From Desulfitibacter sp. BRH_c19 (GTDB lineage Bacteria > Bacillota > DSM-16504 > Desulfitibacterales > Desulfitibacteraceae), in assembly GCA_001515945.1 (NCBI GenBank), contig LOER01000022.1, positions 1 through 64,000 of the forward strand: DNA of 64,000 nt, read 5' to 3'. This document shows, one piece after another, positions 33,416-53,240 of this stretch. The notes beneath the pieces are model-generated. The model was not told the origin of the DNA, did not search any database, and saw only the letters and a list, made by a program, of their open reading frames with translations. Numbering within the stretch: the stretch's first letter is position 1; each line of letters starts with the position of its first letter. The translations under genes were made by a program, and so were the position numbers.

Positions 33416-33534
33416 ATTTAAGTGTTTTACACATAATTATAAAACCTTTGAAGGAGATCTAGGACATTTATAGAAGACTTTTAAAATACTTTGAATATTG
33501 GTAAATTAGGCAGAGTCTCAGGGGGAATTTGCAT

Positions 33535-34956
33535 ATGACAAATAATCATAAGAAAGATCCTGCTAAGCTTGATTTTAATACCCTAAAAAAAATTCTTGAT
33601 AATTCTCATGATGAAATATACGTTACGGATGCTGATGGTACAGTAATATATGTAAATAAGGCAAGCGAAAAGCATTATGGTCTAAAACCGCATGAGGTAA
33701 TTGGAAAGAGTTCCAAGGAACTTACTGAGAACAACTATTGGAGTCCACGAATAAGCCCTATTGTATTTAAAAAGAATCAGAGTATTACCCTTGAGCAAAA
33801 GACATGTCTTGGCAAAACATTATTAACTACTGCAACACCTTTATTCGATAAGAGTGGCAATATTGAACTTATAATTGAAAATTCGAGAGATACTACCGAG
33901 GCAGAAGGAATAAAACATGAGTTAGAAATGAGTAAGCAACTTCTTAAGAGATATAAAACAGAGGTTGAAGAATTACGAAAGAAGGAAATTGATACACCTG
34001 GTTTTGTATGTCATAGTAAAAAAATGAAAAATATTTTGGAATTGACTAATAGAATTGCGAGTATAAACTCAACTGTATTGCTGCTTGGGGAGTCAGGTAC
34101 CGGCAAGGGAGTTCTTGCTAAGTATATTCATAGAAAAAGTAATCAAAGAAAAGGACCTTTTATTGCAATAAATTGTGCTGCAATTCCATCAGAATTGATG
34201 GAAGCAGAACTTTTTGGTTACTCAGGGGGGTCTTTTACAGGAGCCCATGAGAAAGGAAAGATTGGTTTAATTGAGCTTGCTAATGGAGGCACGCTATTTT
34301 TAGATGAGATTGCAGAAATACCTCTAAGATTACAGGCCAAACTACTCCAGGCTTTACAGGAAAAACAGTACTTTCAAGTAGGAGGTCGGGAAGAAAAGCG
34401 TGTTAATTGCAGAATTATTGCCGCAACTAACAGCAACCTCCAACAAATGGTAAACAAAGGCGAATTCAGGGAAGACTTATTCTATAGAATAAATGTGTTT
34501 GAAGTGGATATTCCTCCACTTCGGGAAAGAGTAGATGATATTGTACCTCTTGTAAAGTTCTTTCTGAATAAATTTTGTGAAAAATACGATATCTCACATC
34601 AATTTTCTCAGGAGGTATTAGATGTCTTTCTGCTATATTCCTGGCCTGGAAACGTTAGAGAGTTAGAAAATACAATAGAAAGATTGGTTGTCATGGTTCA
34701 GGAACAAGTAATAAATGTATGCCATCTTCCAAAGACCTTTCAATATGATTCTAAATCAGAATCTTTAATTACATTTACGAGTAATCACATGCCTTTAGAT
34801 GATGCAATTTCAGAACTTGAAAAGAAGCTTGTTGAGACTGCCTATAAAGAATTGGGTAGTTCTTATGCAGTTGCAAAGGTTTTAAAAACCAGTCAAAGTA
34901 AAGCAAATAGGTTAATAAGGAAATATTGTGTGAAGGATCAAACAAAAAATGCCTAA
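33535..34956 (+). CDS. PAS-containing sigma-54-dependent activator
   Basis: A 473-residue enhancer-binding protein with one PAS domain (about 15-115), a coiled linker, an AAA+ domain (about 140-375: Walker A GESGTGKG, GGSFTGA loop, Walker B GGTLFLDEIAEIP) and a C-terminal helix-turn-helix (SSYAVAKVLKTSQSKANRLIRK). ATG 33535 follows GGGGGA; TTG 33529 is too close. It lies upstream of the UAG-containing MttB and a sigma-54 promoter, and AGTCA-type repeats recur before that promoter and those at 38201 and 43499, so it is the best candidate to activate the amine/ethanolamine genes. Confidence 0.92.
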   Translation: MTNNHKKDPAKLDFNTLKKILDNSHDEIYVTDADGTVIYVNKASEKHYGLKPHEVIGKSSKELTENNYWSPRISPIVFKKNQSITLEQKTCLGKTLLTTATPLFDKSGNIELIIENSRDTTEAEGIKHELEMSKQLLKRYKTEVEELRKKEIDTPGFVCHSKKMKNILELTNRIASINSTVLLLGESGTGKGVLAKYIHRKSNQRKGPFIAINCAAIPSELMEAELFGYSGGSFTGAHEKGKIGLIELANGGTLFLDEIAEIPLRLQAKLLQALQEKQYFQVGGREEKRVNCRIIAATNSNLQQMVNKGEFREDLFYRINVFEVDIPPLRERVDDIVPLVKFFLNKFCEKYDISHQFSQEVLDVFLLYSWPGNVRELENTIERLVVMVQEQVINVCHLPKTFQYDSKSESLITFTSNHMPLDDAISELEKKLVETAYKELGSSYAVAKVLKTSQSKANRLIRKYCVKDQTKNA

Positions 34957-35078: not shown

Positions 35079-35095
35079 ATGGCATAAGAATTGCA
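35079..35095 (+). promoter_or_regulatory. sigma-54 promoter of the Pyl-containing MttB gene
   Basis: ATGGCATAAGAATTGCA with GG at 35081-35082 and GC at 35093-35094, ten bases apart. Confidence 0.85.
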
Positions 35096-35203
35096 AATTA
35101 AGAGTTGTAACTGTGTATGATACAAAAATTAGGAGGTGAGCCTACCAATAGGTATTTTAATTCAGATAAAGTAGATTACTAAAAAATTATGGAGGTGAGC
35201 ATT

Positions 35204-36700
35204 TTGGTAAGAGGTTTAAATGCTGGTTCTTATAGACATAATGGGCTTGGATTAAACATGTTTTCCGAAGATGAATTGTATGACATTCACTTGGCTACAT
35301 TAGATGTACTTTGGAATACTGGTGTTAGGGTAGATAGTGCAAAAGCAAGAGAAATTTTTCATAGTAGTGGATGTCAAGTGGATAAGGAAACTAACATTGT
35401 TAAGATTCCTGCCCACCTTGTAGAGGACGCTATTCATTCAATACCAAGTACATTTAGAGCTTGTGGTAGAAATCCAAAAAATGATTGGTATTGTGAGTCA
35501 AATAGAACAGGCTTTGTTAACTTTGGTGAAGCTGTAAAAATTATTGATCCTTATACAAGAAAAATCAGAAAACCTAACAAGCAAGATGTTTGGGATTCGG
35601 CTAGGGTTTGTGAATCTTTAGATAATATTGTTGTTTTTGAGAGATGCTTGATGCCAGAGGAAGTAGATCCTGATGTAGGGCAAGTATATGTTGCTGAAGC
35701 ATTTCTTAATAATTGTACGAAGCACGGTTATATAGGAATGAACAGACCAGAAAATGTTCGTGCTGCTTTTAAAATGGGAGCTTTGGTAGCTGGTGGAGAA
35801 GATAAGTTTAGACAAAGACCTCTTTTCTCTACAAGTACTGATCCAATCAGCCCGCTTTTACATTCAGAGCATGCAGTAGATTCTCTTCTACAGGCAATTG
35901 AATTAGGTCTTCCTGCAAAGATTAATGCTATGGGTCTTGCGGGAGGAACGGCATGTGTTAATTTGGGTAGCGTATTGGTAACTCATAATGCCGAGATTCT
36001 TAGTATGTTTGTTCTAGGACAACAAGTGAAGCGTGGTTTCCCCATGGTTTATGGGACATCTACCACTATGATTGACTTGAGAACTACCATTGCTGCAGTA
36101 GGAACACCGGAATTAGCACTATTTAGTTCAGCTGTGGCAAAACTTGCTCAATATTATAAAATTCCAAGCTGGGTAGCTGGTGGATAGTGTGATAGTAAAT
36201 TACCTGATGCCCAAGCAGCTCACGAGTTTACTTTAACTGCGCTATTACCAGCGTTGGCAGGTGCCAACATGATATATGGTTTAGGTATGCTTGAGGGTGG
36301 ATTGACTTGGGACTATGCTCAGCTTTTAATGCAAAATGAAATGGCTGAGATGTTGCTTCACACAATAAAGGGAATACCCATAAGTGATGAAAAAATGGCT
36401 GTTGACCTAGTTTCAGAGGTAGGACCCGCTGGCGAATTCCTCAGTCACCAACACACTTATGAAAACTTTAAAGAATTGTCAAGAACCAAATTGATTGATA
36501 GAAACCCTCGCGAAGTTTGGACAGAGAGAGGTTCTAAGGATATAGTTGAAAGATCTTATGAAGCTGCAATAGATATTCTTGAAAACTTTAAACCAGATCC
36601 ACTACCAGAAAATATTCAAAAGGGATTAAAGGATATCTTAGCAGAAGCAGAAGCAGAAACAGCAGAACTCAAGGCGAAAGAAAGTGAAAAGAGAAGATAA
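35204..36700 (+). CDS. mttB: trimethylamine methyltransferase MttB with in-frame UAG (pyrrolysine)
   Basis: Two open stretches in the same phase, ending at TAG 36185-36187 and continuing to TAA 36700, give one protein of about 498 residues. Around the TAG the sequence is PSWVAGG-[TAG]-CDSKLPDAQA, and the codon falls near residue 328, close to the Pyl position in archaeal MttB (about 334 of 495). A complete pyrrolysine system lies at 56-60.6 kb. The enzyme takes a methyl group from trimethylamine (or a relative) for a corrinoid protein. TTG 35204 is preferred because GGAGGTG (35191-35197) lies seven bases upstream; ATG 35189 would overlap it. It is driven by the sigma-54 promoter at 35081 and followed by a bidirectional terminator. 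No mttC corrinoid gene is adjacent. Confidence 0.95.
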
Positions 36701-36818: not shown

Positions 36819-37778
36819 CTACTCTTTAATTGCTGCTATATAATTATCAAAGTTTTCATCGTTCATAAAACCAAGTGCTCTGTTAAATCTGTTTAAACCG
36901 TATGGCCAATACTCTTCGTGTGGCTTACCAGTAGCAATTTGTAGCAAGGCCCATACTGACCAAAGAGCATCACATAAGAATTTATTGATAACAACCTGAC
37001 CATATTGTTTCATAGTCAATTCGCTACCGAAATATCCTTCCAAGAATACCTTTTCCAATTCTGGTGTCAAATTGTTCTCAATAATTAAAGCTGCTAGATC
37101 AAAGGAAGGATCGCACATTCCGGAGTACTCCCAGTCTATTAAGTACATTTTGTCTCCATTTAGAATATAGTTCTCTGGTAAAGGATCATTGTGACAGGCT
37201 ACTAGTTTTGGAGGGTTCTTTTCAAAAGCATTTTTGATCAGTTCAAATTTTTCTTGAACCTTATCAAAGCCTTCAAAGAATTCCTTGAAATTCTTTTTTG
37301 CTAGTAGGGCATTGTATTCATCAGTAATCCTGATTGGATCAAAATGGTCCATGAATTCTTTGCCACAACTGTGATATTGCTGAAAAATTTTCGCAGCTTT
37401 TCTTAAAATTTCAGGCTCTTGGAAATCAGGTATATGAAGGGTTTTACCTTCAATGAAATGGCAAATTTGATTTCCGGTAGTTTCATCGTAATAATAAATA
37501 TCGGCGCTAATGCCCATCTCAGACATCAAGGAAGCATTATTCTTTTCAGCTGGACGATTTAGATATTCTGTAGTTCCATCACCTGCAACACGTATGGCGT
37601 AAGGTGTTCCATCAATATATACCTTGTAGTTGCTATTTGTTAAGCCACCTGGTAAGAATTCCACTTGACTTACTCTTGCATCCTTGTCCGCAAAATAAGG
37701 GGTTTTACTCACCATATTTAGAATTCTAGCAATGTGGTCTAGCTTCATGGATGAGTCTATGGTAATTTGTTCCCGCAT
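36819..37778 (-). CDS. choline/ethanolamine kinase family phosphotransferase (LicA-like)
   Basis: A 319-residue small-molecule kinase. QVEFLPGGLTNSNYKVYIDG and YAIRVAGDGT are the N-lobe, CHNDPLPENYIL is the catalytic loop and LIDWEYSGMCDPSFDLA the metal-binding motif; this pattern matches LicA and choline/ethanolamine kinases. It would phosphorylate choline or ethanolamine with ATP in the cytoplasm. The start at 37778 is chosen because GGAGG lies between it and an earlier ATG. It is the only minus-strand gene in this block and is divergent from a second kinase-like gene and a LicB-like transporter, suggesting that phosphorylated choline-type compounds are part of this locus. Confidence 0.8.
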   Translation of the reverse strand: MREQITIDSSMKLDHIARILNMVSKTPYFADKDARVSQVEFLPGGLTNSNYKVYIDGTPYAIRVAGDGTTEYLNRPAEKNNASLMSEMGISADIYYYDETTGNQICHFIEGKTLHIPDFQEPEILRKAAKIFQQYHSCGKEFMDHFDPIRITDEYNALLAKKNFKEFFEGFDKVQEKFELIKNAFEKNPPKLVACHNDPLPENYILNGDKMYLIDWEYSGMCDPSFDLAALIIENNLTPELEKVFLEGYFGSELTMKQYGQVVINKFLCDALWSVWALLQIATGKPHEEYWPYGLNRFNRALGFMNDENFDNYIAAIKE

Positions 37779-38114
37779 GTTGATATCCTCCATTCAAATA
37801 AATAAAGTTAGAATTACAAATGTAATGAAAGAAACACAAAAAAACTGTTATGATAAAGTTCCGAATAACGCACCTTTTAAAACTCAACTGCCCCCCTTTT
37901 TATATAATAAGTTAGGGAAATATGTTTCTTGTAAGATATTAAAAGCAAGTTTCATGCCGAAATTAGAGTTTTTCTAAAAATAATGAAAAAAACATTGCTG
38001 TTATAGAGAGACCATACTCTAATTTGAAGTATATAAATAATTTTGCGAGAACAAAATTAATCAAATTAATTTTAAATTTCAATCTATTCTCACAAACATC
38101 GAGTCAATAGCAAC
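37779..38114. other. intergenic region, no gene recognised
   Basis: The divergent gap between the LicA-like gene and the second kinase-like gene. One plus-strand frame (37732-37977) overlaps the 5' end of the minus-strand gene, lacks a ribosome site and is not protein-like. I see no clear promoter for the minus gene. Regulatory sequences begin at 38115. Confidence 0.5.
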
Positions 38115-38215: not shown

Positions 38216-38367
38216 ATACTGTATAATTGACGTACTTTTTTAAATATTTTATAAACTGGTAAATTTGTATCATACACAGGAACAATATACCAAACTAGGG
38301 GGTGAAAGAGGGCTTAAGTAGCAAGATTTGCAATACCATTAAATTCGACCTTGTAAGGAGGACTACT

Positions 38368-39585
38368 ATGGATACCAGCAGGATGTTACATTTGAAAGAA
38401 ATTGGTACTAAGGAAGCAACTGCCTTGTTTGCACAGAGTGTACAGTTAAAGGAATTTGCACAAGGCCTATATGAAACAATGGAAATTACTCTAGTCAGAA
38501 ACCAGATTCTTGATATTGTAAGAAACCAATATGATATCGGTAGTATTGAGGACGCGTATGAGATTTTTGGAGGCTATGTTAATAAAAGCTTTGGTATTTA
38601 TGTAGAAAAAAATGGAAAGAAACAAGAATATTTTATCAGAAAATACAAAAAAGGTATTGCTGAAAATGAAATTAAATTTGAACATGCACTAATAAGCTGT
38701 GCTATTGAGAATGGATTGGACATAGCGGCTGGACTTATTCCTGCCAAGGATGGAAATACTTACGTAAAATTAATTGAGGAAAATGGTTCCAGCAAAACAG
38801 AAAGATTTTTTGCGATTTATGAATATCTTGACGGTGAAGACAAATATACATGGGATAATCCAACCTTAAATGATGAAGAATACGCAAGTGCTGCTGAAGT
38901 ATTAGCACTATTACATGATTCAACCAAAAACTTTGATCCAATGGGACTTGAAAGAGTAGAGCCCAAAATAATGGAATTTATTCCTACACTCCCTGAAACT
39001 TATAAAGAATTTGCTCAAATGGGGATAGATAACAAATTCCATACTTATTATAAGAAAAATTTAAATGAGATTTTAGAAGAAATTGATAGAGTAATGAAAT
39101 TAATACCTGATGCTGTTTTAACAAAACTGCCAATGATACCTATACATTGTGATATACATCCAGGCAATCTTAAGTACAAAGATAATAAGGCTGTTGGTAT
39201 CTTTGATTTTGATTGGGCAAAAATTGACTTGAGATTATTTGATGTTTGTGAGGCATTAATCTATTTTTGCAGCTCATGGGATGAAGAAACTGACGGACGC
39301 CTATTGTTAAGTAAATGTGCTATCTTTTTAAAGTATTATCAGGATAAGCTTTCTGCAATTGATGGTTTGGAGCCGTTAAGTGAGGCTGAATTGCAGTATT
39401 TGCCTGACATGATGTCAATAGTGAATGTTTATTTGATTAACTGGGCTGTAAGTGCTTATTATGAAGACCCAGAAAACCTAAATGTTTTTGAATATAGGGT
39501 ATATCTGAGTCATCATATCAAACTATTAAGATATATTAAACGCCATAAACTTGATATTGCTGAAATGGTTAAGACTATTCAATAA
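38368..39585 (+). CDS. APH/CotS-type small-molecule phosphotransferase
   Basis: About 405 residues. EIFGGYVNKSFGIYVEKNG and YFIRKYKKG form the nucleotide lobe, IHCDIHPGNLKYK is the catalytic loop (Asp, Asn) and VGIFDFDWAKIDLRLFD carries the metal-binding Asp. This is the aminoglycoside-phosphotransferase fold shared by choline, homoserine and methylthioribose kinases. ATG 38368 follows AAGGAGG; the longer frame from 38302 adds 22 residues with no ribosome site. It is first after a sigma-54 promoter and is followed by a LicB-like transporter, so a choline-like or amino-alcohol substrate is likely but unproven. Confidence 0.75.
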   Translation: MDTSRMLHLKEIGTKEATALFAQSVQLKEFAQGLYETMEITLVRNQILDIVRNQYDIGSIEDAYEIFGGYVNKSFGIYVEKNGKKQEYFIRKYKKGIAENEIKFEHALISCAIENGLDIAAGLIPAKDGNTYVKLIEENGSSKTERFFAIYEYLDGEDKYTWDNPTLNDEEYASAAEVLALLHDSTKNFDPMGLERVEPKIMEFIPTLPETYKEFAQMGIDNKFHTYYKKNLNEILEEIDRVMKLIPDAVLTKLPMIPIHCDIHPGNLKYKDNKAVGIFDFDWAKIDLRLFDVCEALIYFCSSWDEETDGRLLLSKCAIFLKYYQDKLSAIDGLEPLSEAELQYLPDMMSIVNVYLINWAVSAYYEDPENLNVFEYRVYLSHHIKLLRYIKRHKLDIAEMVKTIQ

Positions 39586-39612: not shown

Positions 39613-40620
39613 TTGAGAACTCAAATTGATGCAAAGAAAATGCTTGAACAGCATGAACTTGGACACGCAAAAAAAGGACTTGTATGGGGTGTTATTTCCG
39701 GTGCTACATGGGGTCTAGATGGTGTAATCTGGGGAATGGCTTATATGTTCTTGCCTTTTGCTATTGAATCAGATGTATTAAAGGTAATTATCGCTGTTTC
39801 AGTAGCCTCCGCTGCAATGCATGATGGTTTTTCTGGTTTCTGGTTGTTCTGGTACAACCTGTTTACGGGTAGATGGAAAGAGTATATCAGAACACTTCGT
39901 ACGAAGCCTGGTATGATAGTATGTCTAGGTGCACTTTTTGGTGGTCCGATAGCCATGACAGGTTATTCGGCAGGGATTATGTTAGCGGGTGCATCGTATG
40001 CTCTTGCGGTAACCGCCATGTATCCTGCTGTAGGTGCAATTTTAGCCGTATTTATTTTAAAGGAAAAGATTGTGCCCCGTGTTTATATTGGAATTGCAAT
40101 GTGTATACTTGGTGCAGTTGTTGTAAACTGGACTCCACCAGCAGGGGATGCATATCCCATGTTCTATCTTGGAATGGGTCTATCATTATTAGCTACTTTT
40201 GGATGGGGTGTTGAAGGTGTTTTAGCCGCCTACGGAATGGATATGGCTGACCCAGATGTAGCTATAGGTATTCGTCAAGCAACTTCCTTTGTAGTATATT
40301 TTGTTTTAATATTACCAGTATTTGCTGGAACAGCATTATTTTTTGAAGCATTTACTACTGGTGCCCTTGGCTATATGGCACTTGCAGGTCTCATGGGTGC
40401 AATTTCATATCTTGCCTGGTATAGAGCGATTAATATGACTGGTGTGGGACGTGCAATGGCATTTAATGTTACCTATGCATTATGGGCAATTGTATTTGGA
40501 TACCTTTTAACTGACATTGAAATAACTACTAACTTGGTAGTTGGAGCTCTTATTATTACAGGTGGGACTATATTAGTCTTAGCTAATCCAAAAGAATTAT
40601 TAAACTTAAGAAAAGTATAA
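39613..40620 (+). CDS. DMT/EamA-type transporter, LicB-like choline permease candidate
   Basis: A 335-residue membrane protein with ten predicted segments in two EamA repeats; GVISGATWGLDGVIWGMAY and, in the second half, LATFGWGVEGVLAAYGMDM. The C-terminal TGGTILVLANPKE resembles LicB, the choline permease encoded with licA in pneumococcus and Haemophilus. TTG 39613 follows AAGGGGGA, 28 bases after the kinase gene, so the two form an operon. It is the best candidate importer for the choline-type substrate of this locus. Confidence 0.8.
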   Translation: MRTQIDAKKMLEQHELGHAKKGLVWGVISGATWGLDGVIWGMAYMFLPFAIESDVLKVIIAVSVASAAMHDGFSGFWLFWYNLFTGRWKEYIRTLRTKPGMIVCLGALFGGPIAMTGYSAGIMLAGASYALAVTAMYPAVGAILAVFILKEKIVPRVYIGIAMCILGAVVVNWTPPAGDAYPMFYLGMGLSLLATFGWGVEGVLAAYGMDMADPDVAIGIRQATSFVVYFVLILPVFAGTALFFEAFTTGALGYMALAGLMGAISYLAWYRAINMTGVGRAMAFNVTYALWAIVFGYLLTDIEITTNLVVGALIITGGTILVLANPKELLNLRKV

Positions 40621-41117: not shown

Positions 41118-41162
41118 AAAATGAGAGTTATGTCGAAAAAGTTACGAAAGGGAGACTATACT

Positions 41163-42605
41163 ATGCAATTTACAAAACTATTAACTCAGGAAGAAGTCCA
41201 AAAGGTTCATGATGCCTCACTTATAATACTAGAGGAAGTTGGACTTTTAGTTCACAATGAAAAAGCTCGGGATATATATGAAAAACATGGTTGTGATGTG
41301 AATAAAGAAACTGGACTTGTAAAAATTCCAGGTAAAGTGGTAGAGGAGTATAGAAAGGGGTTTGGACCTAAGTATACATTTACAGCTCGTGTGCCGGAAT
41401 TTGATAAAACAATTCCAGATGACAGGCCACTAGTAGTTACTGGAAGTTCGGCACCTAATGTAATTGACCCTCATACCGGAGAAGAAAGACGTGCAACTTC
41501 AACTGATATTGCCAATATTGCTCACCTTATTAATGAATTGCCTGGATTTGATGTATTCTCGATTTCCACTTTGGCAGCAGATGCTCCTAAGGGGCAGTTT
41601 AGCTTATCTCGTTTTTATCCAGCGTTAAAGAACTGCAAAAAACCAGTTAGAAGTAACACTCCCGATATGAAAGATCTTTACCAGGTGCTTGAGTTAGGTT
41701 ACCTAATAGCTGGTAGTAAGGAAGCTTATTTCGAACGTCCATTTATTAACCACCACTACTGTCCGGTTGTTTCTCCACTTACTATGGATGTAGAGTCGAC
41801 CGAAGCAGTAATTTATTTAGCAGAGCTAGGTTTGCCGATTTATGGCACTATAGTACCAAATGCAGGAATGACCTCGCCAATGACAATGATCGGTACACTT
41901 GCACTAGGAAATGCTGAATTCCTTGCCCTAAGTGTATTGCTACAAATGGTTCGACCAGGCAACCCAGTTATCTATGCAACACTTCCTACTGTTGCTGATA
42001 TGCGCACAGGAAATTATACACCAGGAGCTATTGAAACAGGAATGCTGCATATGGCACATAGCCAAATGGCTCAATTCTATGGAGTACCATCTGGTGGTTA
42101 TATAGGTTTGACTAATGCACATTCTAATGATGCCCAGTCAGGTTATGAAACAGGGATGAATACTACTGCTGGTTTACTAGCGGGTGTTGATCTATTCAAC
42201 ATGGGTGGACTATTAGATAGCCTTACAGCTTTTGATTTTGCTAAAGCAGTAATTGACAATGAAATAGCCATGATGCTTAAACGTGTTAAACGTGGAATGG
42301 AGTTTAGTGAGGAAAATTTATGCCTAGATCTTATAAAAGAAGTTGGGCCAGCTGGCATGTATATGGATAAAGAACATACTGTGAAGAATATGCGTGACAT
42401 AGCCTTTTTGACAAAAGTTACGTCTCGAGAGATGAGAAGCCAGTGGCAGGTAGAAGGCAAACCTGACACCCATGTACGTGCAATGAAGCAAGTTGACCAG
42501 ATCTTTAGCGGAGATACCTCTCCAAAGTTTTCTGCAGAAGTTGATGAAAAAATTCGTGCCCATTTTCCAGAAATAGTAGAAGGAAACGTCAGTTGGAAAA
42601 AGTAG
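41163..42605 (+). CDS. MttB-superfamily methyltransferase without pyrrolysine
   Basis: A 480-residue corrinoid methyltransferase of the MttB/MtgB superfamily. The active-site stretch PSGGYIGLTNAHSNDAQ aligns residue for residue with PSWVAGG-Pyl-CDSKLPDAQ of MttB; Pyl is Leu, and the following DSK is NAH, so it differs from both other paralogues and probably has a different quaternary-amine substrate. AAAGGGAG precedes ATG 41163. It has its own sigma-54 promoter and terminator. Position between the choline-kinase/transporter genes and the ethanolamine operon makes choline, carnitine-like or N-methylated ethanolamines candidates; this is inference. Confidence 0.82.
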   Translation: MQFTKLLTQEEVQKVHDASLIILEEVGLLVHNEKARDIYEKHGCDVNKETGLVKIPGKVVEEYRKGFGPKYTFTARVPEFDKTIPDDRPLVVTGSSAPNVIDPHTGEERRATSTDIANIAHLINELPGFDVFSISTLAADAPKGQFSLSRFYPALKNCKKPVRSNTPDMKDLYQVLELGYLIAGSKEAYFERPFINHHYCPVVSPLTMDVESTEAVIYLAELGLPIYGTIVPNAGMTSPMTMIGTLALGNAEFLALSVLLQMVRPGNPVIYATLPTVADMRTGNYTPGAIETGMLHMAHSQMAQFYGVPSGGYIGLTNAHSNDAQSGYETGMNTTAGLLAGVDLFNMGGLLDSLTAFDFAKAVIDNEIAMMLKRVKRGMEFSEENLCLDLIKEVGPAGMYMDKEHTVKNMRDIAFLTKVTSREMRSQWQVEGKPDTHVRAMKQVDQIFSGDTSPKFSAEVDEKIRAHFPEIVEGNVSWKK

Positions 42606-42664: not shown

Positions 42665-42722
42665 AGGTAATCTAGCTTAGCAATGTGGCATACGTTACCA
42701 GTACTGATAGAAGGTGATTTTA

Positions 42723-43349
42723 ATGGTAAAAAGTGGCTTAATTATGTTTGACTATGATGGCGTAATCGTGGATTCCTTTGAAGTGCATGCTAGGAACTTT
42801 ATCGTCGCATGCCAGGAAAATGAATTTAATGAAGTGAACAATTATAAGGATCTCTTGGATTTATATGAAGGGAATATCTATAGCGGCTTGTCTGCTAAAG
42901 GATTGACAAAAAGCACTATAGATCAGATATTAAAGGACTATGCTATTAAGCAAAAAACCAGCTTGCAAGGGGTTAGATTATTCCAAGGAATGAAAGAGTG
43001 CATCGAAATTCTTGCAAAATCCAATGAGATTTATATTATTACATCCAATGTATCCGATGCAGTAGTAGATGTTTTAGAGAGACTTAAGGTTAGGGGGTTC
43101 CAGGATGTAATAGGTGCTGAGAAAGAAAAGAGCAAGGTCAAGAAGATAAAGACTTTGAAGTCTAAATATTCAAATCTAGCTTCATTTTATGTAGGTGACA
43201 CAAAGGGAGATATTTTTGAAGGTAAGGAAGCAGGCGTAAAAACTATTGGTGTATCCTGGGGGTGGCACGGGAAAGCAAGGCTTATGGAAGCTGTTCCCGA
43301 TTATATCGTGGAGTACCCTGAGGAGCTAGTAAACTTACTTTCAAATTAA
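42723..43349 (+). CDS. HAD-superfamily phosphatase (subfamily IA)
   Basis: A 208-residue haloacid dehalogenase-like hydrolase. Motif I is MFDYDGVIVDS (nucleophile and acid Asp), motif II is IITSN, the Lys lies in EKEKSKVKK and motif IV is FYVGDTKGDIFEGKEAG. The helical cap between motifs I and II is of type C1. Such enzymes hydrolyse small phosphomonoesters. ATG 42723 follows AAGGTG; GTG 42714 overlaps the ribosome site. In this locus, next to choline/ethanolamine-kinase-like genes, a phosphocholine or phosphoethanolamine phosphatase is possible but not shown by the sequence. Confidence 0.8.
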   Translation: MVKSGLIMFDYDGVIVDSFEVHARNFIVACQENEFNEVNNYKDLLDLYEGNIYSGLSAKGLTKSTIDQILKDYAIKQKTSLQGVRLFQGMKECIEILAKSNEIYIITSNVSDAVVDVLERLKVRGFQDVIGAEKEKSKVKKIKTLKSKYSNLASFYVGDTKGDIFEGKEAGVKTIGVSWGWHGKARLMEAVPDYIVEYPEELVNLLSN

Positions 43350-43602: not shown

Positions 43603-44967
43603 ATGAAATTAAAAGCAAACATTTATAACAACGTCTTTACGTTTAAGACCGTAAAAGAAGTTTTGGCAAAGGCCAATGAGGAGAAATCAGGTGACATCCT
43701 AGTAGGTATAGCAGCAGGGTCTTCGTCAGAAAGAGTAGCAGCCAAGCTAGTATTAAGCAGAATGAGCCTGGAAGATATTTATGAAAATCCGGTAATACCT
43801 TATGAAGAGGATGAAGTAACCAGGTTGATCTATGATACATTAAACACAAGTATTTACAATAAAATAAAGGGTAAAACAGTAGGAGAACTAAGAGAGTATA
43901 TCTTGGATCTTGAAACAACAGGCGAGGATCTTCTTCATATCAGTCGTGGGTTAACAAGTGAAATGATAGCAGCAGTAGCAAAGATAATGTCAAATATGGA
44001 TTTGGTATACGCATCCAAAAAGATTAGACCTTATGCCCATTGTAATACTACCATTGGAGTATCTGGCACATTAGCTTTTAGAAACCAACCAAACCATCCA
44101 ACAGATGACATAAACGGGATAATAGCATCAATGAAAGAAGGATTAACCTTTGGATCAGGTGATGCTGTAATAGGAATTAATCCAGTAGAAGATAATGCAG
44201 AAAACACAGCATATATGCTAAAAACAGTAAAGGAATTCATGGAAAAGTGGGAAATACCAACCCAAAACTGTGTTCTTGCTCATGTATCAACCCAAATGAA
44301 AGCAATGGAAAAGGGAGCACCAGTTGATTTGTTATTCCAAAGTATTGCAGGAACTCAAAAGACAAACGAGGCTTTTGGAGTGGATGCAGCTCTTCTTGAT
44401 GATGCATTAGCACTAGCAATACTTCAAGGAACAGGAACGGGTCCAAATGTAATGTACTTTGAAACAGGACAAGGCTCAGAGGTTTCCTTAAATGCACATT
44501 GTGGTGTTGATGAAATGACACTAGAATCAAGAACCTATGGCTTTGGCAGAAAATACAGACCATTTATGGTAAACAATGTATCAGGGTTTATAGGTCCTGA
44601 AACCATCTATGATGGCCGTGAGGTAATAAGAGCTGATTTAGAGGATCTATTTATGGGTAAATTTCACGGACTGCCAATGGGAATAGCTCCATGCTATACA
44701 AACCATATGAAAGCAGACCAAAATGACCAAGAAATAGGTTCAATGTTATGTGCCATGGCAGGAGCATACTTCTTCATGGGAGTACCAGGTGGAGATGACG
44801 TAATGTTGAATTATCAGGATACAAGCTATCATGATGATGCTACATTGAGAGAAATACTCGGACTAAGACCTCTCCCTGAATTTGAAAAGTGGCTAGAGAA
44901 AATGGGATTAATGGAGAATGGCAGACTTACCAAAAAAGCCGGAGACCCATCAATATTTGATAAATAA
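43603..44967 (+). CDS. eutB: ethanolamine ammonia-lyase, large subunit
   Basis: A 454-residue EutB. AAGSSSERVAAKLVLSRMSL, KKIRPYAHCNTTIG, DAVIGINPVEDNAENT, YFETGQGSEVSLNAHCGVD and PGGDDVMLNYQDTSYHD are highly conserved EutB blocks that bind ethanolamine and adenosylcobalamin. With EutC it converts ethanolamine to acetaldehyde and ammonia by a radical mechanism inside the microcompartment. GGGAGG precedes ATG 43603. It is the first gene after the sigma-54 promoter and leads a compact operon to 55972. Confidence 0.97.
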   Translation: MKLKANIYNNVFTFKTVKEVLAKANEEKSGDILVGIAAGSSSERVAAKLVLSRMSLEDIYENPVIPYEEDEVTRLIYDTLNTSIYNKIKGKTVGELREYILDLETTGEDLLHISRGLTSEMIAAVAKIMSNMDLVYASKKIRPYAHCNTTIGVSGTLAFRNQPNHPTDDINGIIASMKEGLTFGSGDAVIGINPVEDNAENTAYMLKTVKEFMEKWEIPTQNCVLAHVSTQMKAMEKGAPVDLLFQSIAGTQKTNEAFGVDAALLDDALALAILQGTGTGPNVMYFETGQGSEVSLNAHCGVDEMTLESRTYGFGRKYRPFMVNNVSGFIGPETIYDGREVIRADLEDLFMGKFHGLPMGIAPCYTNHMKADQNDQEIGSMLCAMAGAYFFMGVPGGDDVMLNYQDTSYHDDATLREILGLRPLPEFEKWLEKMGLMENGRLTKKAGDPSIFDK

Positions 44968-44984
44968 TACAGGAGGTGAGATAG

Positions 44985-45884
44985 ATGACAGTATCAAATG
45001 AAATGGAAAAAGCAATCATAGAAAGTGTTTTACAGGAGTTGAGTAAAAGAGGAGTAAACCCTGCGGCAGCAGTTGAAGAGAAAGTAAAAAATGTGGTAAC
45101 TCAAGAAAAAACATCAAGTGAAGTTTCAGACGAAATTATAGATATGCCAGATATAACAAAACACTGGATACCAGAACCAGCAAATGAAGAAGCTCTTGAA
45201 GCAATGAAAAAGTCAACAAATGCTAGAATTGGATTATATAGAGCAGGGACCAGACAAAAGACAGATTCTTTAATAAGATTTCTCGCGGATCATGCAGTAG
45301 CAAGAGATGCAGTATTCATGGATGTATCAGATGAGTTCCTTCAGAAAATGAATTTATTCGGGGTATCTTGTGTAGCAGCAGATAAGGAAGAGTTTCTAAC
45401 AAAGCCTAATCTAGGAATGAAACTTTCAGATGAGGCAGTACAGACAATAAAAGAAAAGTGTGAGAGCAATATACAGGTACAGATAGTCATAGTAGACGGA
45501 TTAAGCTCAACTGCCATTGAAAGAAATATACCCGATATCTTACCAGCATTAACACAAGGGTTAAAAGCAGCAGGCATAAAGGTAGGAACACCATTTTTCG
45601 TAAAAAATGGCAGAGTAAGAGTAATGGATCAGATTGGGATGCTCCTAAACGCAGAAGTGGTATTAGAGCTAGTAGGAGAAAGGCCAGGTCTTGGAACGGC
45701 AGAGAGCATGAGTGCATATTTAATATATAAGCCAAGTGAAAAGACAGTAGAGGCAGATAGAACGATGATATCAAACATCCATAGAAGAGGAACTCCACCG
45801 GCTGAAGCGGGAGCACAAATAGTTGATCTAGTAAAACAAATGCTTGATAAAAAAGCTAGTGGTATCAAACTAAACAAAGCATAA
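44985..45884 (+). CDS. eutC: ethanolamine ammonia-lyase, small subunit
   Basis: A 299-residue EutC. The N-terminal MEKAIIESVLQELSKRG is an amphipathic helix of the kind that targets enzymes to microcompartments, joined by a flexible linker to the conserved core (ARIGLYRAGTRQKT, VIVDGLSSTAIERN, VLELVGERPGLGTAESMSAY, HRRGTPPAEAGAQI). It completes the adenosylcobalamin binding site with EutB. AGGAGGTGAG precedes ATG 44985, 17 bases after eutB. Confidence 0.97.
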   Translation: MTVSNEMEKAIIESVLQELSKRGVNPAAAVEEKVKNVVTQEKTSSEVSDEIIDMPDITKHWIPEPANEEALEAMKKSTNARIGLYRAGTRQKTDSLIRFLADHAVARDAVFMDVSDEFLQKMNLFGVSCVAADKEEFLTKPNLGMKLSDEAVQTIKEKCESNIQVQIVIVDGLSSTAIERNIPDILPALTQGLKAAGIKVGTPFFVKNGRVRVMDQIGMLLNAEVVLELVGERPGLGTAESMSAYLIYKPSEKTVEADRTMISNIHRRGTPPAEAGAQIVDLVKQMLDKKASGIKLNKA

Positions 45885-45912
45885 ACAATAATTAAGAGAT
45901 TGCTTAATCAAG

Positions 45913-47391
45913 GTGGTGATTCATATAGGAGAGGCTGGGCACCAGAAAATAATAAGCGTAGGAATTGACATAGGTACTACAACAACCCAACTGGTAATGA
46001 GTCGATTGACTATTAAGAATTCATCACCTGGAGCAGTAATACCAAAGATGGATATAACGGACAAAGAAATATTATATAGAAGTAATATTCATATTACACC
46101 AATAAATGAACATTTATTAATAGATGCGCATCAAGTAAAAAAAATCATAGAGGCAGAATACAAGCTAGCTGGTGTTAAAAAAGAAGCAGTAGAAACTGGA
46201 GCAGTAATCATAACAGGTGAAACTGCAAAAAAGGGCAATGCCAAGAACATTTTAGAAGCTACAGCAGGTTTTGCGGGAGATTTTGTTGTGGCTACAGCAG
46301 GAGTGAATCTTGAATCCATACTAGCAGGTAAGGGTTCAGGAGCTGCAAAGTACTCAAAAGAAAATCACAAAATTGTAGCTAATATAGATGTGGGGGGAGG
46401 AACCTCAAATATAGGAGTCTTTAAAGGTGGAAGGACATTAGATACAGCATGCATTAACATAGGAGGTCACCTAATCGAGCTGGAAAAACACAGCGATAAG
46501 ATAACCTATATATCTGACCCTGCAAGACTTGTAATAAATGATATGGGATTACAACTAGGCGTGGGAGAGAGAGTCACACAAAGCCAGCTTATACAGATAT
46601 CCAAAAAAATGGCAGAGGCAATCCTAGAAACCATTACAAAGAGAAAAGTAGCTGGACTTGCTCAACAATTAATGATGACACCACCACTAAAAGAGGATTA
46701 CAAGATAGAGAAGGTAATGATTTCAGGTGGGGTCGCAGATTATGTATATAGTGACTATCGTCCAGTATCAGTAACAGATATCACAAAATATGGTGATATG
46801 GGACCAATACTTGGCTGGGCAATACAAGAAGCGTTTAAAAAAGAAGGAATTCAACTGGCTAAACCTGCAGAAACAATACGTGCTACAGTCATAGGTGCAG
46901 GCATTCATTCTTTAGAAATAAGTGGTAGCACAATTCATGTCAATAGTGGCACGCTGCCTTTAAGAAATATAACAGTAATATCACCATTTCCAGAAGGTGT
47001 ACCTGAAAAAGCAGCAGATATAGCAAAGCTATTAAAGAATCAGGTAGATAGGATAACGGTACAGGATATAACAGAACAGAATCTTGCAATAGCTTTGAAA
47101 GAACCCTATGATATGTCATTTAACTCAGTAAATGAATTAGCCCATGGTATTTTTGAGGCAATGGAGGAATATATAACACAAAAAAAACCACTTATTATAG
47201 TCATTGAAGCAGATTGTGGAAAGGTGTTAGGTCAGTGCTTAAGCATAATAGCTAAAGCTTCAAATGAGTTAATATGTATAGATCAGATACAGGTAGATGA
47301 AGGTGACTACATAGATATTGGAAAACCCGTAATGGGAGGAAGAGTAGTCCCTGTAGTTGTAAAAACCTTAGTGTTCGAAAAAGCAAAGTAA
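45913..47391 (+). CDS. eutA: ethanolamine ammonia-lyase reactivating factor EutA
   Basis: A 492-residue ASKHA-fold ATPase. SVGIDIGTTTTQLVMSRL is the phosphate-1 motif, NIDVGGGTSNIGVF the phosphate-2 motif and MISGGVADYV the adenosine motif. EutA exchanges damaged cobalamin on EutBC for fresh adenosylcobalamin at the expense of ATP. GTG 45913 follows AAGGTG. The gene lies 28 bases after eutC. Confidence 0.94.
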   Translation: MVIHIGEAGHQKIISVGIDIGTTTTQLVMSRLTIKNSSPGAVIPKMDITDKEILYRSNIHITPINEHLLIDAHQVKKIIEAEYKLAGVKKEAVETGAVIITGETAKKGNAKNILEATAGFAGDFVVATAGVNLESILAGKGSGAAKYSKENHKIVANIDVGGGTSNIGVFKGGRTLDTACINIGGHLIELEKHSDKITYISDPARLVINDMGLQLGVGERVTQSQLIQISKKMAEAILETITKRKVAGLAQQLMMTPPLKEDYKIEKVMISGGVADYVYSDYRPVSVTDITKYGDMGPILGWAIQEAFKKEGIQLAKPAETIRATVIGAGIHSLEISGSTIHVNSGTLPLRNITVISPFPEGVPEKAADIAKLLKNQVDRITVQDITEQNLAIALKEPYDMSFNSVNELAHGIFEAMEEYITQKKPLIIVIEADCGKVLGQCLSIIAKASNELICIDQIQVDEGDYIDIGKPVMGGRVVPVVVKTLVFEKAK

Positions 47392-47397
47392 GTTGGG

Positions 47398-47414
47398 GAG
47401 GTGTGTCCCCGTAC
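47398..47414 (+). repeat. REP-like half element
   Basis: GAGGTGTGTCCCCGTACATT-type right half between eutA and eutL. The same sequence recurs at 49749 and, degenerate, at 53180 and 53202. Confidence 0.65.
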
Positions 47415-47436
47415 ATTAAAAGGAGGTTTTAAATTA

Positions 47437-48096
47437 ATGGGTATTCTAGATCCAATAAAACCAGAAATTCTGGCAGTTAAGTTTATCCCAAATGTTTCAG
47501 AAGACCTAAAAAGAGACTTAAATCTTACATCTGACCAAAGAAGTATTGGAATGTTTACTTGTAATGTAGATGATGCAGGTTATACCGCTATAGATGAAGC
47601 AACAAAAAAAGCAGCAGTAGAGGTAGTATACGCCAAAAGCTTTTATGCTGGAGCAGCTCATGCATCGGGTCCTCTATCAGGAGAGTTTATAGGCATACTT
47701 GCAGGGACCAACCCAGCAGAAGTAAAGGCGGGATTGGAAGCAGCTACCATGTGCATTAAAGAAGAGGCTTGGTTTTATACAGCTAATGAGGAAGGTACAA
47801 TAGCTTTTTATGCACATTGTATCTCAAGAACAGGATCATATCTTTCAAAGGTGGCAGGGATAAATGAAGGTGACTCATTAGCATATCTTATTGCACCACC
47901 TATAGAATCTGTTTATGGAATAGATGCGGCATTAAAAGCTGCTGATGTAAAAATGGCATTATGGTATGGCCCTCCGGGAGAAACCAACTTTGGAGGAGGC
48001 TTACTTACAGGATCACAAAGTGCTTGTAAAGCAGCAACAGAGGCTTTTCGAGATGCAGTAGTAAGCGTGGCTAGAAGTCCAAAGGATTATGAATAG
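47437..48096 (+). CDS. eutL: microcompartment shell protein EutL
   Basis: A 219-residue tandem BMC-domain shell protein. ILAVKFIPNVSEDLKRDL, SIGMFTCNVDDAGYTAIDEATKKA, GPLSGEFIGILAG and a repeat starting YLIAPPIESVYGIDAALKAADV match EutL, which forms trimers with gated pores. ATG 47437 follows AAAGGAGG; an upstream in-frame start at 47401 lies in the REP-like sequence and is unlikely. Ends with TAG. Confidence 0.94.
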   Translation: MGILDPIKPEILAVKFIPNVSEDLKRDLNLTSDQRSIGMFTCNVDDAGYTAIDEATKKAAVEVVYAKSFYAGAAHASGPLSGEFIGILAGTNPAEVKAGLEAATMCIKEEAWFYTANEEGTIAFYAHCISRTGSYLSKVAGINEGDSLAYLIAPPIESVYGIDAALKAADVKMALWYGPPGETNFGGGLLTGSQSACKAATEAFRDAVVSVARSPKDYE

Positions 48097-48108
48097 GTTG
48101 TATAAATT

Positions 48109-48117
48109 GGGGACATT
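48109..48117 (+). repeat. short REP-like remnant
   Basis: GGGGACATT between eutL and eutT, a shortened copy of the element found whole at 49713-49768. Confidence 0.45.
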
Positions 48118-48135
48118 AAAAGGAGGTCTTTTAAA

Positions 48136-48867
48136 ATGAGGGTAGTAACAGAGATTGAACTTAGAGATGAATATAAAAAGGTGCCTTTTACCTCCTTTAA
48201 GCTACCTGAAGGATGTAGGCTAACACCCTCGGCCGCCCAGTTTCTTAGTGAACGCAAGATTGAAGTTATAACTGGGCAGCAAGCCCAAGCTCATAAAAAA
48301 GCAAAAGATACTAAGCCGACTAATAATGATAAGTCCGGATCTGGAAATGTAAAACCGGAGCACATGACCCATTTAAGAGGTACAGAATTGGTATCAAAAG
48401 ATCATCCAGCAATTAAATTTAGGGGAAGACTTGATACTTTTGAAGCTCACTTACTATCTAGCATATTGGAGGCACAAAGTGCAGGGTATCAGGAATTAGT
48501 ACGGGATTTACAAGATCTGCTCGATTATGCTAGACAAATGATGCGAGCTGAAGTGATGAATGAGCCCCTTGCACAGATTAAAATACGTGGTTGGTCTCCT
48601 CAGGAAATACGAGAGAGATCCCATTATATAAAAAAGTTTTATGATATCAATCATTTTACTCCGCAGACTGGACACGGTAGATTAATTGTGCAGCTAAATT
48701 ATCTTAGAACCCAGGCTAGAGAGCTGGAGCTAACTGCTATAGATGCTTTTTATAATGACAACAAAGTGGAAAGAGAAGATATTATACAAGCACTTAACCG
48801 CTTTAGTAGCCTTATTTATATCTTTATGGCACAGCTTTTATCAGGTCACTATAAGATTGGAAACTGA
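48136..48867 (+). CDS. eutT: EutT-type cobalamin adenosyltransferase
   Basis: A 243-residue protein. The N-terminal YKKVPFTSFKLPEGCRLTPS and AAQFLSERKIEV match the start shared by EutT and EutQ-like proteins. The C-terminal helical domain (HLRGTELVSKDHPAIKFRG, LDTFEAHLLSSILEAQ, HFTPQTGHGRLIVQLNYLR) is a EutT/PduO-type cobalamin adenosyltransferase. It makes adenosylcobalamin from ATP and reduced cobalamin for EutBC. The PduS-like reductase downstream may deliver the electron. AAAGGAGG precedes ATG 48136. Confidence 0.87.
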   Translation: MRVVTEIELRDEYKKVPFTSFKLPEGCRLTPSAAQFLSERKIEVITGQQAQAHKKAKDTKPTNNDKSGSGNVKPEHMTHLRGTELVSKDHPAIKFRGRLDTFEAHLLSSILEAQSAGYQELVRDLQDLLDYARQMMRAEVMNEPLAQIKIRGWSPQEIRERSHYIKKFYDINHFTPQTGHGRLIVQLNYLRTQARELELTAIDAFYNDNKVEREDIIQALNRFSSLIYIFMAQLLSGHYKIGN

Positions 48868-48884
48868 CGTAGGGAGTGGCATAA

Positions 48885-49781
48885 GTGGAATCACTAATCA
48901 ATGCAAATAACCTAATAAAAAGCTTCGAAAACACCTTCAAAGAGCCAGCTTTAATGAATGGAAAAAAACTATATACAGGTGTAGACCTTGGTACTGCTTA
49001 TATAGTACTAGCGGTTGTAGACGAGGATGGGAACCCTATAGCTGGAGCCATGCAGTTTGCTCAGGTGGTCAGAGACGGTCTTGTAGTTGATTATATTGGT
49101 GCTGTGGATATAGTTAGAAGGTTAAAAGATAAGCTTGAAAAAATACTAGGTTGTGAGCTTCTGATAGCAGGAGTTGCTTACCCACCTGGTACAATTAGTG
49201 GGGACCAGAAGGCAATAGGTTATGTTGCAGAATCAGCTGGATTTGAAGTTGTTTCCATGATTGATGAACCAACTGCAGCAAATAAGGTTCTAAGCATTGA
49301 AAATGGCGCTGTTGTGGATATTGGAGGAGGAACTACAGGAATAGCGGTTTTTAAGGATAGGGAAGTAGTTTATGTGGCAGATGAAGCTACAGGTGGAACA
49401 CACTTTAGCCTAGTGATATCAGGATCTTATAAGATACCATTTTTGGATGCAGAAAAATTAAAAACTGATACTACAAGGCATAAAGAATTATTTCCAGTAA
49501 TTAAACCTGTCGTTGAGAAGGTATCTACAATAATCAAAAGACATATTGAAGGTCATAATGTGGACACGGTTTATCTGGTTGGCGGAACAAGCTGTTTTGA
49601 GGGTATGGAAAAAATTATTGAGAAGGAACTTGACATACCTGTCATAAAGCCAGACAATCCGCTTTTAGTAACTCCCCTTGGGATTGCCCTTGGTGTTCAA
49701 GAAGCAAATGTTGGGGACATTCCTCAGCGACAAAGGATAGCTACAAAAGAGGTGTGTCCCCGTACATTAAAGGGAGGTTGA
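48885..49781 (+). CDS. eutJ: EutJ chaperone-like ATPase with a repeat-derived C-terminal tail
   Basis: A 298-residue DnaK/actin-fold protein. YTGVDLGTAYIVLAVVDEDG, GAVVDIGGGTTGIAVF and VYLVGGTSCFEGME are the three ATP-binding motifs; the family is EutJ/PduJ-associated reactivase-like proteins of unknown exact role in Eut operons. The normal ending is around LGIALGVQEANV; the last 22 residues (GDIPQRQRIATKEVCPRTLKGG in two parts) are encoded by an inserted REP-like element at 49713-49768. GTG 48885 follows GGGAGTGG. Eight bases separate it from eutN. Confidence 0.88.
   Translation: MESLINANNLIKSFENTFKEPALMNGKKLYTGVDLGTAYIVLAVVDEDGNPIAGAMQFAQVVRDGLVVDYIGAVDIVRRLKDKLEKILGCELLIAGVAYPPGTISGDQKAIGYVAESAGFEVVSMIDEPTAANKVLSIENGAVVDIGGGTTGIAVFKDREVVYVADEATGGTHFSLVISGSYKIPFLDAEKLKTDTTRHKELFPVIKPVVEKVSTIIKRHIEGHNVDTVYLVGGTSCFEGMEKIIEKELDIPVIKPDNPLLVTPLGIALGVQEANVGDIPQRQRIATKEVCPRTLKGG
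49713..49768 (+). repeat. complete REP-like inverted-repeat element inside the 3' end of eutJ
   Basis: GGGGACATTCCTC (49713-49725) is complementary at 11 of 13 positions to GAGGTGTGTCCCC (49749-49761). The element adds the final residues of EutJ and provides the region just before the eutN ribosome site. Confidence 0.75.
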
Positions 49782-49788
49782 TTAAAGA

Positions 49789-50055
49789 TTGAAAATAGGA
49801 AAAGTAATTAACAGTATCTGGGCGACTAGAAAAGAAGAATCACTAGTAGGAGTTAAGCTGATGATAGTTCACCTTCATGATAGGACTAAAGAAGAAGACG
49901 GACGGATAATAGTAGCAGCAGATCTAATTGGAGCGGGAATTGGAGAAAAGGTATTGGTTACTGAAGGAAGTTCGGCCAGACGTATGGGAGGACTAGAGGA
50001 TTCTCCCGTAGATGCAATGATAGTAGGGATAATTGACGAAGAGAAAGAAAGCTGA
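49789..50055 (+). CDS. eutN: microcompartment vertex protein EutN
   Basis: An 88-residue EutN/CcmL-type pentamer protein. MKIGKVINSIWATRKEESLVG and DLIGAGIGEKVLVTEGSSAR are characteristic, and VDAMIVGIID ends the domain. Such pentamers cap the vertices of the icosahedral shell. TTG 49789 follows GGGAGG. Confidence 0.94.
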   Translation: MKIGKVINSIWATRKEESLVGVKLMIVHLHDRTKEEDGRIIVAADLIGAGIGEKVLVTEGSSARRMGGLEDSPVDAMIVGIIDEEKES

Positions 50056-50068
50056 TGGGGAGACAGAC

Positions 50069-51400
50069 ATGGGAGAACAGATGATTGAAAAAATTCAAGA
50101 TGCAGGAGTAGTAGGAGCAGGAGGAGCAGGTTTTCCAACACATGTTAAAGTATCATCTACTGCAAAAACAATTGTAGTAAATGGTGCAGAATGTGAACCC
50201 CTTCTAAGGGTAGACCAGCAGCTTATGAGTATGAAAACTAAGCAGATGGTAAAGGGCTTATGTATCGTCATGGAAATATCGAGAGCTGGTCAAGGTGTAA
50301 TAGCATTAAAGGCTAAGTATAAGGAAGCAATTGAGCAATTGAAAAAAGAAATAGCAGGAAAGCCTATAAGACTGAACATTCTAGATGATTTTTATCCTGC
50401 TGGAGATGAACACGTTACAGTATATGAAGCTACTGGTAACCTTGTACCCCAAGGAGCAATACCTCTAAAAGTTGATTGTGTTGTAATTAATGTGGAAACA
50501 TTAATCAATGTTGCAGAAGCATTAGAAGGAAAGCCTGTTATGGATACCTACTTAACAGTCACAGGAGAGATTGCGAAACCTATTACCATGAAACTACCAG
50601 TAGGAACCCCCATTAAAGAGGTGCTTGCAATCGCTGGAGTCAAGTCCTTAAAAGGACTGAAGGTAATAGATGGGGGACCCATGATGGGTAAGATAGTGGA
50701 AGATTTGACAGACTCAATTACTAAAACCACAAAGGGACTCATAGTACTTCCAGAGGATCACCCATTGATCAGAAAAAGACTAAAAGTTATAGATAGAATT
50801 ATAAAAGAATCGAATGTTGCTTGTATACAGTGTAGATTTTGTACAGATTTGTGTCCTAGATATTTGTTAGGGCATAAACTGGAACCCCATAAAATCATGA
50901 GATCATTAGGACACATACATGGGCAGGAGGATGCCCTAAAAATGGCATTAGTTTGCTCGGAATGTGGTGTATGTGAACAATATGCATGCATAGTGGACCT
51001 TTCCCCAAGGAAAGTAAATGCTATGCTAAAACAAGAATTAAGCAAAAAGGGTATTAAGCCTGATATGCCAAAAGAGCAGACTGTTTCACACATGCAGGAG
51101 CATAGAAAGATACCAGTAAAAAGGCTTATTTCCAGACTTGGACTTACTGCGTATGACAAAAATGCTCCTCTAGAGAAAATGGAATACCAAGTGAAAAGGG
51201 TGCATATAAAGCTTCATCAGCATGTAGGAGCGCCATCAATTCCAGTAGTAGAAGTGGGACAAAAGATACAAAGGGGTAGCCTTATAGCAAGAATACCTGA
51301 TAATGCACTAGGAGCAAATATCCATGCCAGCATAAGTGGAATCGTCATGGAAGTATCTGATAGCATAGTCATTACATCAGGGGAAGGAAGTGGTGAGTAA
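50069..51400 (+). CDS. PduS/RnfC-like cobalamin reductase (SLBB, iron-sulfur, FMN)
   Basis: A 443-residue flavin/iron-sulfur protein. GAGGAGFPTHVK near the N-terminus is the nucleotide-binding motif shared with RnfC and NuoF, the middle has an SLBB domain (LKGLKVIDGGPMMGK), and two 4Fe-4S motifs follow: CIQCRFCTDLCP and CSECGVCEQYAC. PduS reduces cob(III)alamin for the adenosyltransferase or moves electrons across the shell. ATG 50069 follows TGGGGAGA; the frame from 50033 overlaps eutN. Next to a PduT-type shell protein, which suggests electron transfer through its iron-sulfur pore. Confidence 0.88.
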   Translation: MGEQMIEKIQDAGVVGAGGAGFPTHVKVSSTAKTIVVNGAECEPLLRVDQQLMSMKTKQMVKGLCIVMEISRAGQGVIALKAKYKEAIEQLKKEIAGKPIRLNILDDFYPAGDEHVTVYEATGNLVPQGAIPLKVDCVVINVETLINVAEALEGKPVMDTYLTVTGEIAKPITMKLPVGTPIKEVLAIAGVKSLKGLKVIDGGPMMGKIVEDLTDSITKTTKGLIVLPEDHPLIRKRLKVIDRIIKESNVACIQCRFCTDLCPRYLLGHKLEPHKIMRSLGHIHGQEDALKMALVCSECGVCEQYACIVDLSPRKVNAMLKQELSKKGIKPDMPKEQTVSHMQEHRKIPVKRLISRLGLTAYDKNAPLEKMEYQVKRVHIKLHQHVGAPSIPVVEVGQKIQRGSLIARIPDNALGANIHASISGIVMEVSDSIVITSGEGSGE

Positions 51401-51948: not shown

Positions 51949-51949
51949 A

Positions 51950-51980
51950 ACCAACCATGGGGACGGTTCTCCTGGCTGGT
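51950..51980 (+). repeat. short interspersed inverted repeat (GGGGACGGTTCT type)
   Basis: ACCAACCA (51950-51957) pairs with TGGCTGGT (51973-51980) at 7 of 8 positions around GGGGACGGTTCTCC. Such GGGGACGGTTCT elements occur between genes in many Firmicutes; a related GTGTGTCC string follows at 51994. Confidence 0.55.
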
Positions 51981-52027
51981 AAATCCATTAAGAAGTGTGT
52001 CCATATTCCGCTTAAGGAGGTGAATTT

Positions 52028-52723: not shown

Positions 52724-52737
52724 TAAGGTTTAAGTGC

Positions 52738-52776: not shown

Positions 52777-52814
52777 ATATTACAAAAAACAAAAATTCAA
52801 GGAGGTAATTTTAA

Positions 52815-53090: not shown

Positions 53091-53109
53091 ATACTGGTTA
53101 AAAAATGCT

Positions 53110-53221: not shown

Positions 53222-53240
53222 AAGAAGGGGGTTGGGGGAC

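Follow-up and report, generated by a model that had tools for sequence, protein, structure and literature searches.

At positions 35204–36700 (+) of the window, here the 64-kb stretch formed by the first 64,000 nucleotides of contig LOER01000022.1 of Desulfitibacter sp. BRH_c19, lies an mttB-family gene with an in-frame UAG, assigned by the NCBIfam model TIGR02369, by alignment with PDB 7xcl/7xcm and by the fold match of an AF2 model. Its frame comprises 498 codons from TTG 35204 or 503 codons from ATG 35189. The TTG, where the earlier note began the gene, is the better supported start, as a Shine-Dalgarno sequence GGAGGTGA (35191–35198, +) stands upstream and this SD-TTG arrangement recurs in relatives. 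Further upstream lies a sigma-54 (-24/-12) promoter-like site, TGGCATAAGAATTGCA (35080–35095, +). Sites of the TGGCA/TTGCA type also precede the gene in the related genomes G001, G002, G113 and G060, with a weaker site in G069; none was found upstream of the G109 gene. The probable regulator is a sigma-54 activator with PAS and AAA+ domains (33529–34956, +; Pfam Sigma54_activat, 228 bits).

The in-frame UAG at 36185–36187 (+) is predicted to encode pyrrolysine (Pyl), the 22nd amino acid. The earlier note had stated that the frame keeps its phase beyond this codon, that it is MttB-like on both sides, and that standard gene calling would split it, all of which holds. The TAG is followed by 170 sense codons before TAA 36698–36700, an open frame with a chance of ~1.4e-5 at the local GC, while the remaining two frames downstream contain 14 and 20 stops. 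Table 11 gene calling breaks the gene into 35189–36187 (332 aa) and 36254–36700 (148 aa); the joined product covers positions 2–469 of the 469 in TIGR02369 and scores 637 bits (cut-off 525). An alignment with Methanosarcina MttB, the check that the note proposed, places the UAG on the Pyl column as the note had claimed, opposite the X (Pyl, M. barkeri position 334) of PDB 7xcl, the nearest relative of solved structure. Pyl or UAG fills that column in 42/42 sequences (41 bacterial plus M. barkeri), and the TAG is kept in the ~90%-identical orthologues of the two nearest species. Against one congener, omega is 0.028 before the TAG and 0.065 after it, and by this measure purifying selection on the protein is confirmed to carry on past the UAG. 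In-frame TAA codons noticed in some relatives proved on checking to be terminal stops.

The window also holds the full Pyl system reported previously, with all proteins above their NCBIfam cut-offs. Behind an ethanolamine utilization operon stand, on the forward strand, pylT, a tRNA-Pyl with anticodon CUA (56068–56140, +; ARAGORN), pylB (56213–57322, +; TIGR03910, 499 bits vs a cut-off of 348), pylC (57319–58488, +; TIGR03909, 445 vs 248) and pylSn (58513–58842, +; TIGR03912, 132 vs 51). Facing them are pylD (58878–59702, -; TIGR03911, 263 vs 150) and pylSc (59736–60572, -; TIGR02367, 352 vs 178). G001 shows the protein-coding genes of this set in the same arrangement.

UAG also serves as a stop in this organism, since 16 of the 61 genes in the 64-kb window, on which alone stop usage was counted, end in TAG; this is 26% of window gene ends, and the next in-frame stop then follows within 31 codons. 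A 2014 paper set archaea, where amber stops are rare, against bacteria, which handle Pyl by regulation (PMC3941956). Such stop usage favors a genuine stop at 36185–36187, with separate halves or a decaying gene, a reading made hardly credible by the open frame and its low omega beyond the UAG, the retention of the UAG across genera and the full pyl set. Alignment, family model, UAG conservation, purifying selection and the complete pyl set together bear out the earlier claim of a UAG read as Pyl and strongly support a Pyl-containing MttB-family corrinoid methyltransferase; from the same sequence evidence we infer Pyl incorporation at the UAG.

The gene is one of several of its kind. The 3.85-Mb genome (G000) contains at least 12 Pyl genes, namely seven UAG-containing mttB and five UAG-containing mtbB, along with ~30 non-Pyl MttB-family matches, some of them partial; its four mtmB matches were searched for UAG and have none. 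The UAGs of all seven mttB share one alignment column, at which 23 non-Pyl paralogues carry Cys, Leu, Thr, Asn and other residues. Cys is found there in 11 of these 23 (L009–L013, L015, L016, L018–L020 and L026); the TAG in L013 and L018 is the terminal stop. His (CAT) occupies the column in L181 (G072) and L183 (G031), which are ~45% identical to the Pyl enzyme and, as judged from the alignment, present a natural Pyl replacement. In G003 (80% complete), which has a UAG-containing mttB (L065, G003:C5:2624-4096), no PylS was found, and this absence may reflect genome incompleteness.

Among 398 genomes of the phylum, UAG-containing relatives of the gene at ~58–74% identity occur beyond the genus in G113, G060, G109, G069 (three copies), G072, G359 and G270. 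In a maximum-likelihood tree, 11 sequences, the G270 fragment being omitted, form one clade with support of 100/100, to which neither M. barkeri MttB nor the other Pyl-MttBs belong.

Comparison with M. barkeri MttB (PDB 7xcl, PMC9842639) reveals a shared fold with a number of replaced residues. An AF2 model in which the UAG residue was built as Lys (mean pLDDT 86) has M. barkeri MttB as its best fold match (TM 0.88) at ~38% identity, and a corrinoid mechanism is to be expected. Gly110 and Tyr364, which activate Pyl in MttB (PMC9842639), are kept in 11/11 clade sequences and correspond to G113 and Y363 of the product; Gly372 is kept in 10/11. In contrast, 16 columns conserved in other Pyl-MttBs are changed in the clade, with clade-wide replacement at Cys219, Asn245, Leu247, Pro257 and Ala238. 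Cys219 becomes Asp, at a site following a predicted barrel strand of the AF2 model, while Asn245 becomes Lys and Leu247 becomes Asn; these two lie close in sequence to the active-site residue Met249, which changes position in the MttB-MttC complex (PMC9842639), and occupy every other position along its strand or the end of that strand. The positions of these three replacements suggest that they may line the pocket; Lys244 would be a fitting partner for a phosphate or hydroxyl, and Asp218 for a hydroxyl or amine.

The neighborhood of the gene, which sets it apart from M. barkeri mttB, is rich in choline and ethanolamine functions. A choline kinase-like protein (36819–37793, -; PF01633, 92 bits) matches the bacterial choline/ethanolamine kinases PDB 3dxq and 4r77. 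It is followed by an APH/homoserine kinase-like kinase (38302–39585, +; PF01636, 72 bits), a LicB-like choline transporter of the EamA/DMT type (39613–40620, +; PDB 7b0k LicB, E 1.5e-29), a non-Pyl MttB-family methyltransferase with Leu at the Pyl column (41121–42605, +; TIGR02369, 356 bits, below cut-off) and a HAD-family phosphatase-like protein (42714–43349, +; best match PpaX, 70 bits, below cut-off). Next comes the ethanolamine microcompartment operon (43603–55972, +), annotated from NCBIfam and Pfam as EutB, EutC, EutA, EutL, EutT, EutJ, PduS-like, PduT-like, EutQ, BMC shell, aldehyde dehydrogenase and PduL. A cognate corrinoid protein gene (TIGR02370) was sought in the 64-kb window with no match; one adjoins the clade member in G060, G109, G072 and G359.

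This neighbor order is conserved in G001, and like gene kinds surround the clade member in G113, G060, G109 and G072. In G109, G072 and G359, mttB-Pyl, the corrinoid protein and a choline kinase follow one another, and the fragment also carries eut genes; in G113, an ethanolamine permease scoring above its cut-off is present as well. Within 10 kb, a choline or APH-like kinase accompanies 8/12 clade genes vs 1/30 other Pyl-MttBs (Fisher 3.4e-5), a LicB-like EamA protein 4/12 vs 0/30, a relative of the 41121 MttB likewise 4/12 vs 0/30, and eutBCA 5/12 vs 2/30 (p 0.014, modest), all in tests that treat related genomes as independent and include many clade contigs ending near the gene.

Part of this gene set has a characterized parallel. 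In Eubacterium limosum, MthK phosphorylates choline and the non-Pyl MthB demethylates the product to dimethylaminoethanol phosphate (PMC12155760). The kinase, EamA transporter and non-Pyl MttB stand together in its mth cluster as 38302, 39613 and 41121 do here, which makes 38302 and 41121 candidate counterparts of MthK and MthB, equated by arrangement and annotation only. Whereas the E. limosum pathway ends at dimethylaminoethanol and its MttB members are without Pyl (PMC12155760), the window adds a Pyl enzyme and ethanolamine breakdown to this trio. Methanococcoides is described as demethylating choline fully to ethanolamine, with di- and monomethylethanolamine as intermediates (PMC7374477, relaying Watkins 2012; PMC13044021), which matches the route proposed below; there, however, a non-Pyl MtmB homologue does the choline step, and in the literature cited we found no named dimethylethanolamine enzyme.

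Based on gene neighbors and altered active-site residues, which suggest a choline breakdown product over trimethylamine (TMA) as the substrate, we interpret the gene as encoding a Pyl-dependent demethylase of N,N-dimethylethanolamine, free or phosphorylated, that would feed choline into ethanolamine breakdown, a reading to which we give a probability of roughly 0.58. We envision that the LicB-like transporter would import choline and that phosphocholine would be made by kinase 38302 and/or 36819. The non-Pyl MttB 41121 would then take off the first methyl, like MthB in E. limosum. In the mechanism proposed for Pyl, a tertiary amine joins it to give a quaternary adduct (PMC12155760, PMC9842639). 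As dimethylethanolamine is a tertiary amine, we propose that the Pyl enzyme takes the second methyl; with PylSn/PylSc charging tRNA-Pyl with the Pyl from PylB, PylC and PylD, and UAG 36185–36187 read as sense, this enzyme would form a Pyl-amine adduct and transfer the next methyl onto a corrinoid protein, which would be encoded outside the window, perhaps by G000:C31:2927-3559. The HAD protein 42714 may remove the phosphate, and EutBC would cleave ethanolamine inside the microcompartment. Transcription is probably sigma-54-driven, with 33529 as the activator. A demethylase for monomethylethanolamine, taking the last methyl, is missing from this proposed path.

Two further readings keep the Pyl enzyme and change its substrate. 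The enzyme could be a TMA:corrinoid methyltransferase, one of seven paralogues, whose choline and eut neighbors reflect TMA as a choline product. TIGR02369 indeed assigns an MttB equivalog over cut-off, the fold match is MttB, and the Pyl-activating Gly110 and Tyr364, with Gly372 nearly throughout, are retained. The Pyl-MttBs of Bilophila (PMC7593587) and Acetohalobium (Prat 2012, cited there), which share with this one the UAG at the conserved mttB position, the pyl gene set and pylS as two genes, are, unlike it, assigned to TMA; the TMA of Bilophila comes from choline via the choline-TMA lyase CutC, or from betaine (PMC7593587). A relative outside the clade, G345, combines eut genes with CutC. 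Within the clade genomes, on the other hand, no CutC was found over cut-off, leaving CutC-type cleavage of choline unsupported there as a TMA source. Three CutC-like glycyl-radical enzymes (G000:C14, C5 and C30) fall below the CutC cut-off and count against the choline proposal. So do the G069 clade genes, next to which no eut genes were found on the sequence examined, and two Pyl-MttBs outside the clade that also adjoin eut genes.

Against TMA as the substrate stand the clade-wide alteration of positions conserved in other Pyl-MttBs, the almost clade-specific association with choline kinases, and the six more Pyl-MttBs of the same genome that could handle TMA. We therefore regard this reading as rather unlikely, and a plain TMA methyltransferase function probably falls short of describing the clade. 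It is less likely still that the enzyme serves another amine of the pathway, tertiary or secondary (e.g. monomethylethanolamine), or an unrelated amino alcohol. The charged or polar residues at three clade positions would fit this, and the substrate may differ among the three divergent G069 copies, but known MttB chemistry concerns tertiary amines, with a secondary amine being without direct support. Demethylation of dimethylethanolamine or its phosphate is the reading that we prefer.

A separate feature follows the UAG in the RNA. A hairpin, GUUGGC-AGGU-GCCAAC (36253–36268, +), at +69 to +84 from the UAG, is a candidate cis element on the grounds of covariation, synonymous constraint and overlap with an Rfam family. 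Over the first 33 codons beyond the UAG (36188–36286), synonymous identity is higher than ahead of it in 7/7 orthologue pairs; the Mantel-Haenszel odds ratio is 1.92 (z 3.3) for four Pyl G000/G001 pairs vs 0.68 (z -3.3) for twelve non-Pyl pairs. By these counts, synonymous sites in this stretch are under constraint in Pyl mttB but not in the non-Pyl paralogues. In a further synonymous test the excess over codons 1–33 was marginal (p 0.04), with serine columns inflated by the AGY/TCN split.

The hairpin was first spotted by eye and afterwards tested. In the unselected test, all six pairs form in ~21/37 sequences, and third positions covary across the 37 (Watson-Crick p 0.004 and 0.019; with G-U 0.053 and 0.007). 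In the selected alignment A2, 91% of cells pair vs 23–53% for slid controls, although A2 omits eight sequences mostly without the motif, so that its pair counts lean towards structure. Over the 102 nt that begin at the UAG, RNAalifold detected in a set of 37 sequences no stable shared fold exceeding that of recoded controls (z 0.11), and the energies of single sequences are only slightly low (mean z -0.45). A 2013 study found no common structure in mttB (PMC3639795). Rfam PYLIS_3 (RF02510) matches the 100 nt from the UAG in mttB and overlaps the AGGU hairpin, which is itself absent from the PYLIS_3 consensus structure. In mtbB (L136–L140 and 17 further copies), a near-invariant UGCCGG-AGAU-CUGGUA lies at +75 to +90 after the UAG, its third positions covary (22 sequences), and the consensus hairpin of PYLIS_2 (RF02509), which matches the 100 nt from the UAG there, spans this block. 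The mtbB and mttB hairpins are alike in loop and spacing, while MtbB and MttB are without significant sequence similarity. We view the mttB hairpin, from tests that treat sequences as independent of kinship, as a lead and not a proof of a cis element, and a direct effect on decoding at that distance from the UAG is uncertain.

UAG read as Pyl was already known in bacterial mttB; new here are the clade, its choline/eut context and the replaced residues, and the clade counts as new in function if the substrate inference holds. In the literature cited, natural Pyl enzymes are linked with mono-, di- and trimethylamine, with some transposases and Thg1 in addition (PMC8211752). Taken together, our results raise a possible but still doubtful broader picture, in which a Pyl enzyme class for dimethylethanolamine or its phosphate would link choline to ethanolamine in a microcompartment, and AGNU-loop hairpins ~70–90 nt after the UAG of bacterial mttB and mtbB would aid Pyl reading where UAG also stops. 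Whether cis signals mark Pyl codons is disputed, and the hairpin allows this to be tested directly in bacteria. If the substrate reading is true, it would be the first Pyl job beyond the three methylamines in the literature cited, widening what Pyl serves, and it would provide choline demethylation with an enzyme for its second step. It would also open a route from choline to ethanolamine without trimethylamine, a matter relevant to both TMA formation and methane production.
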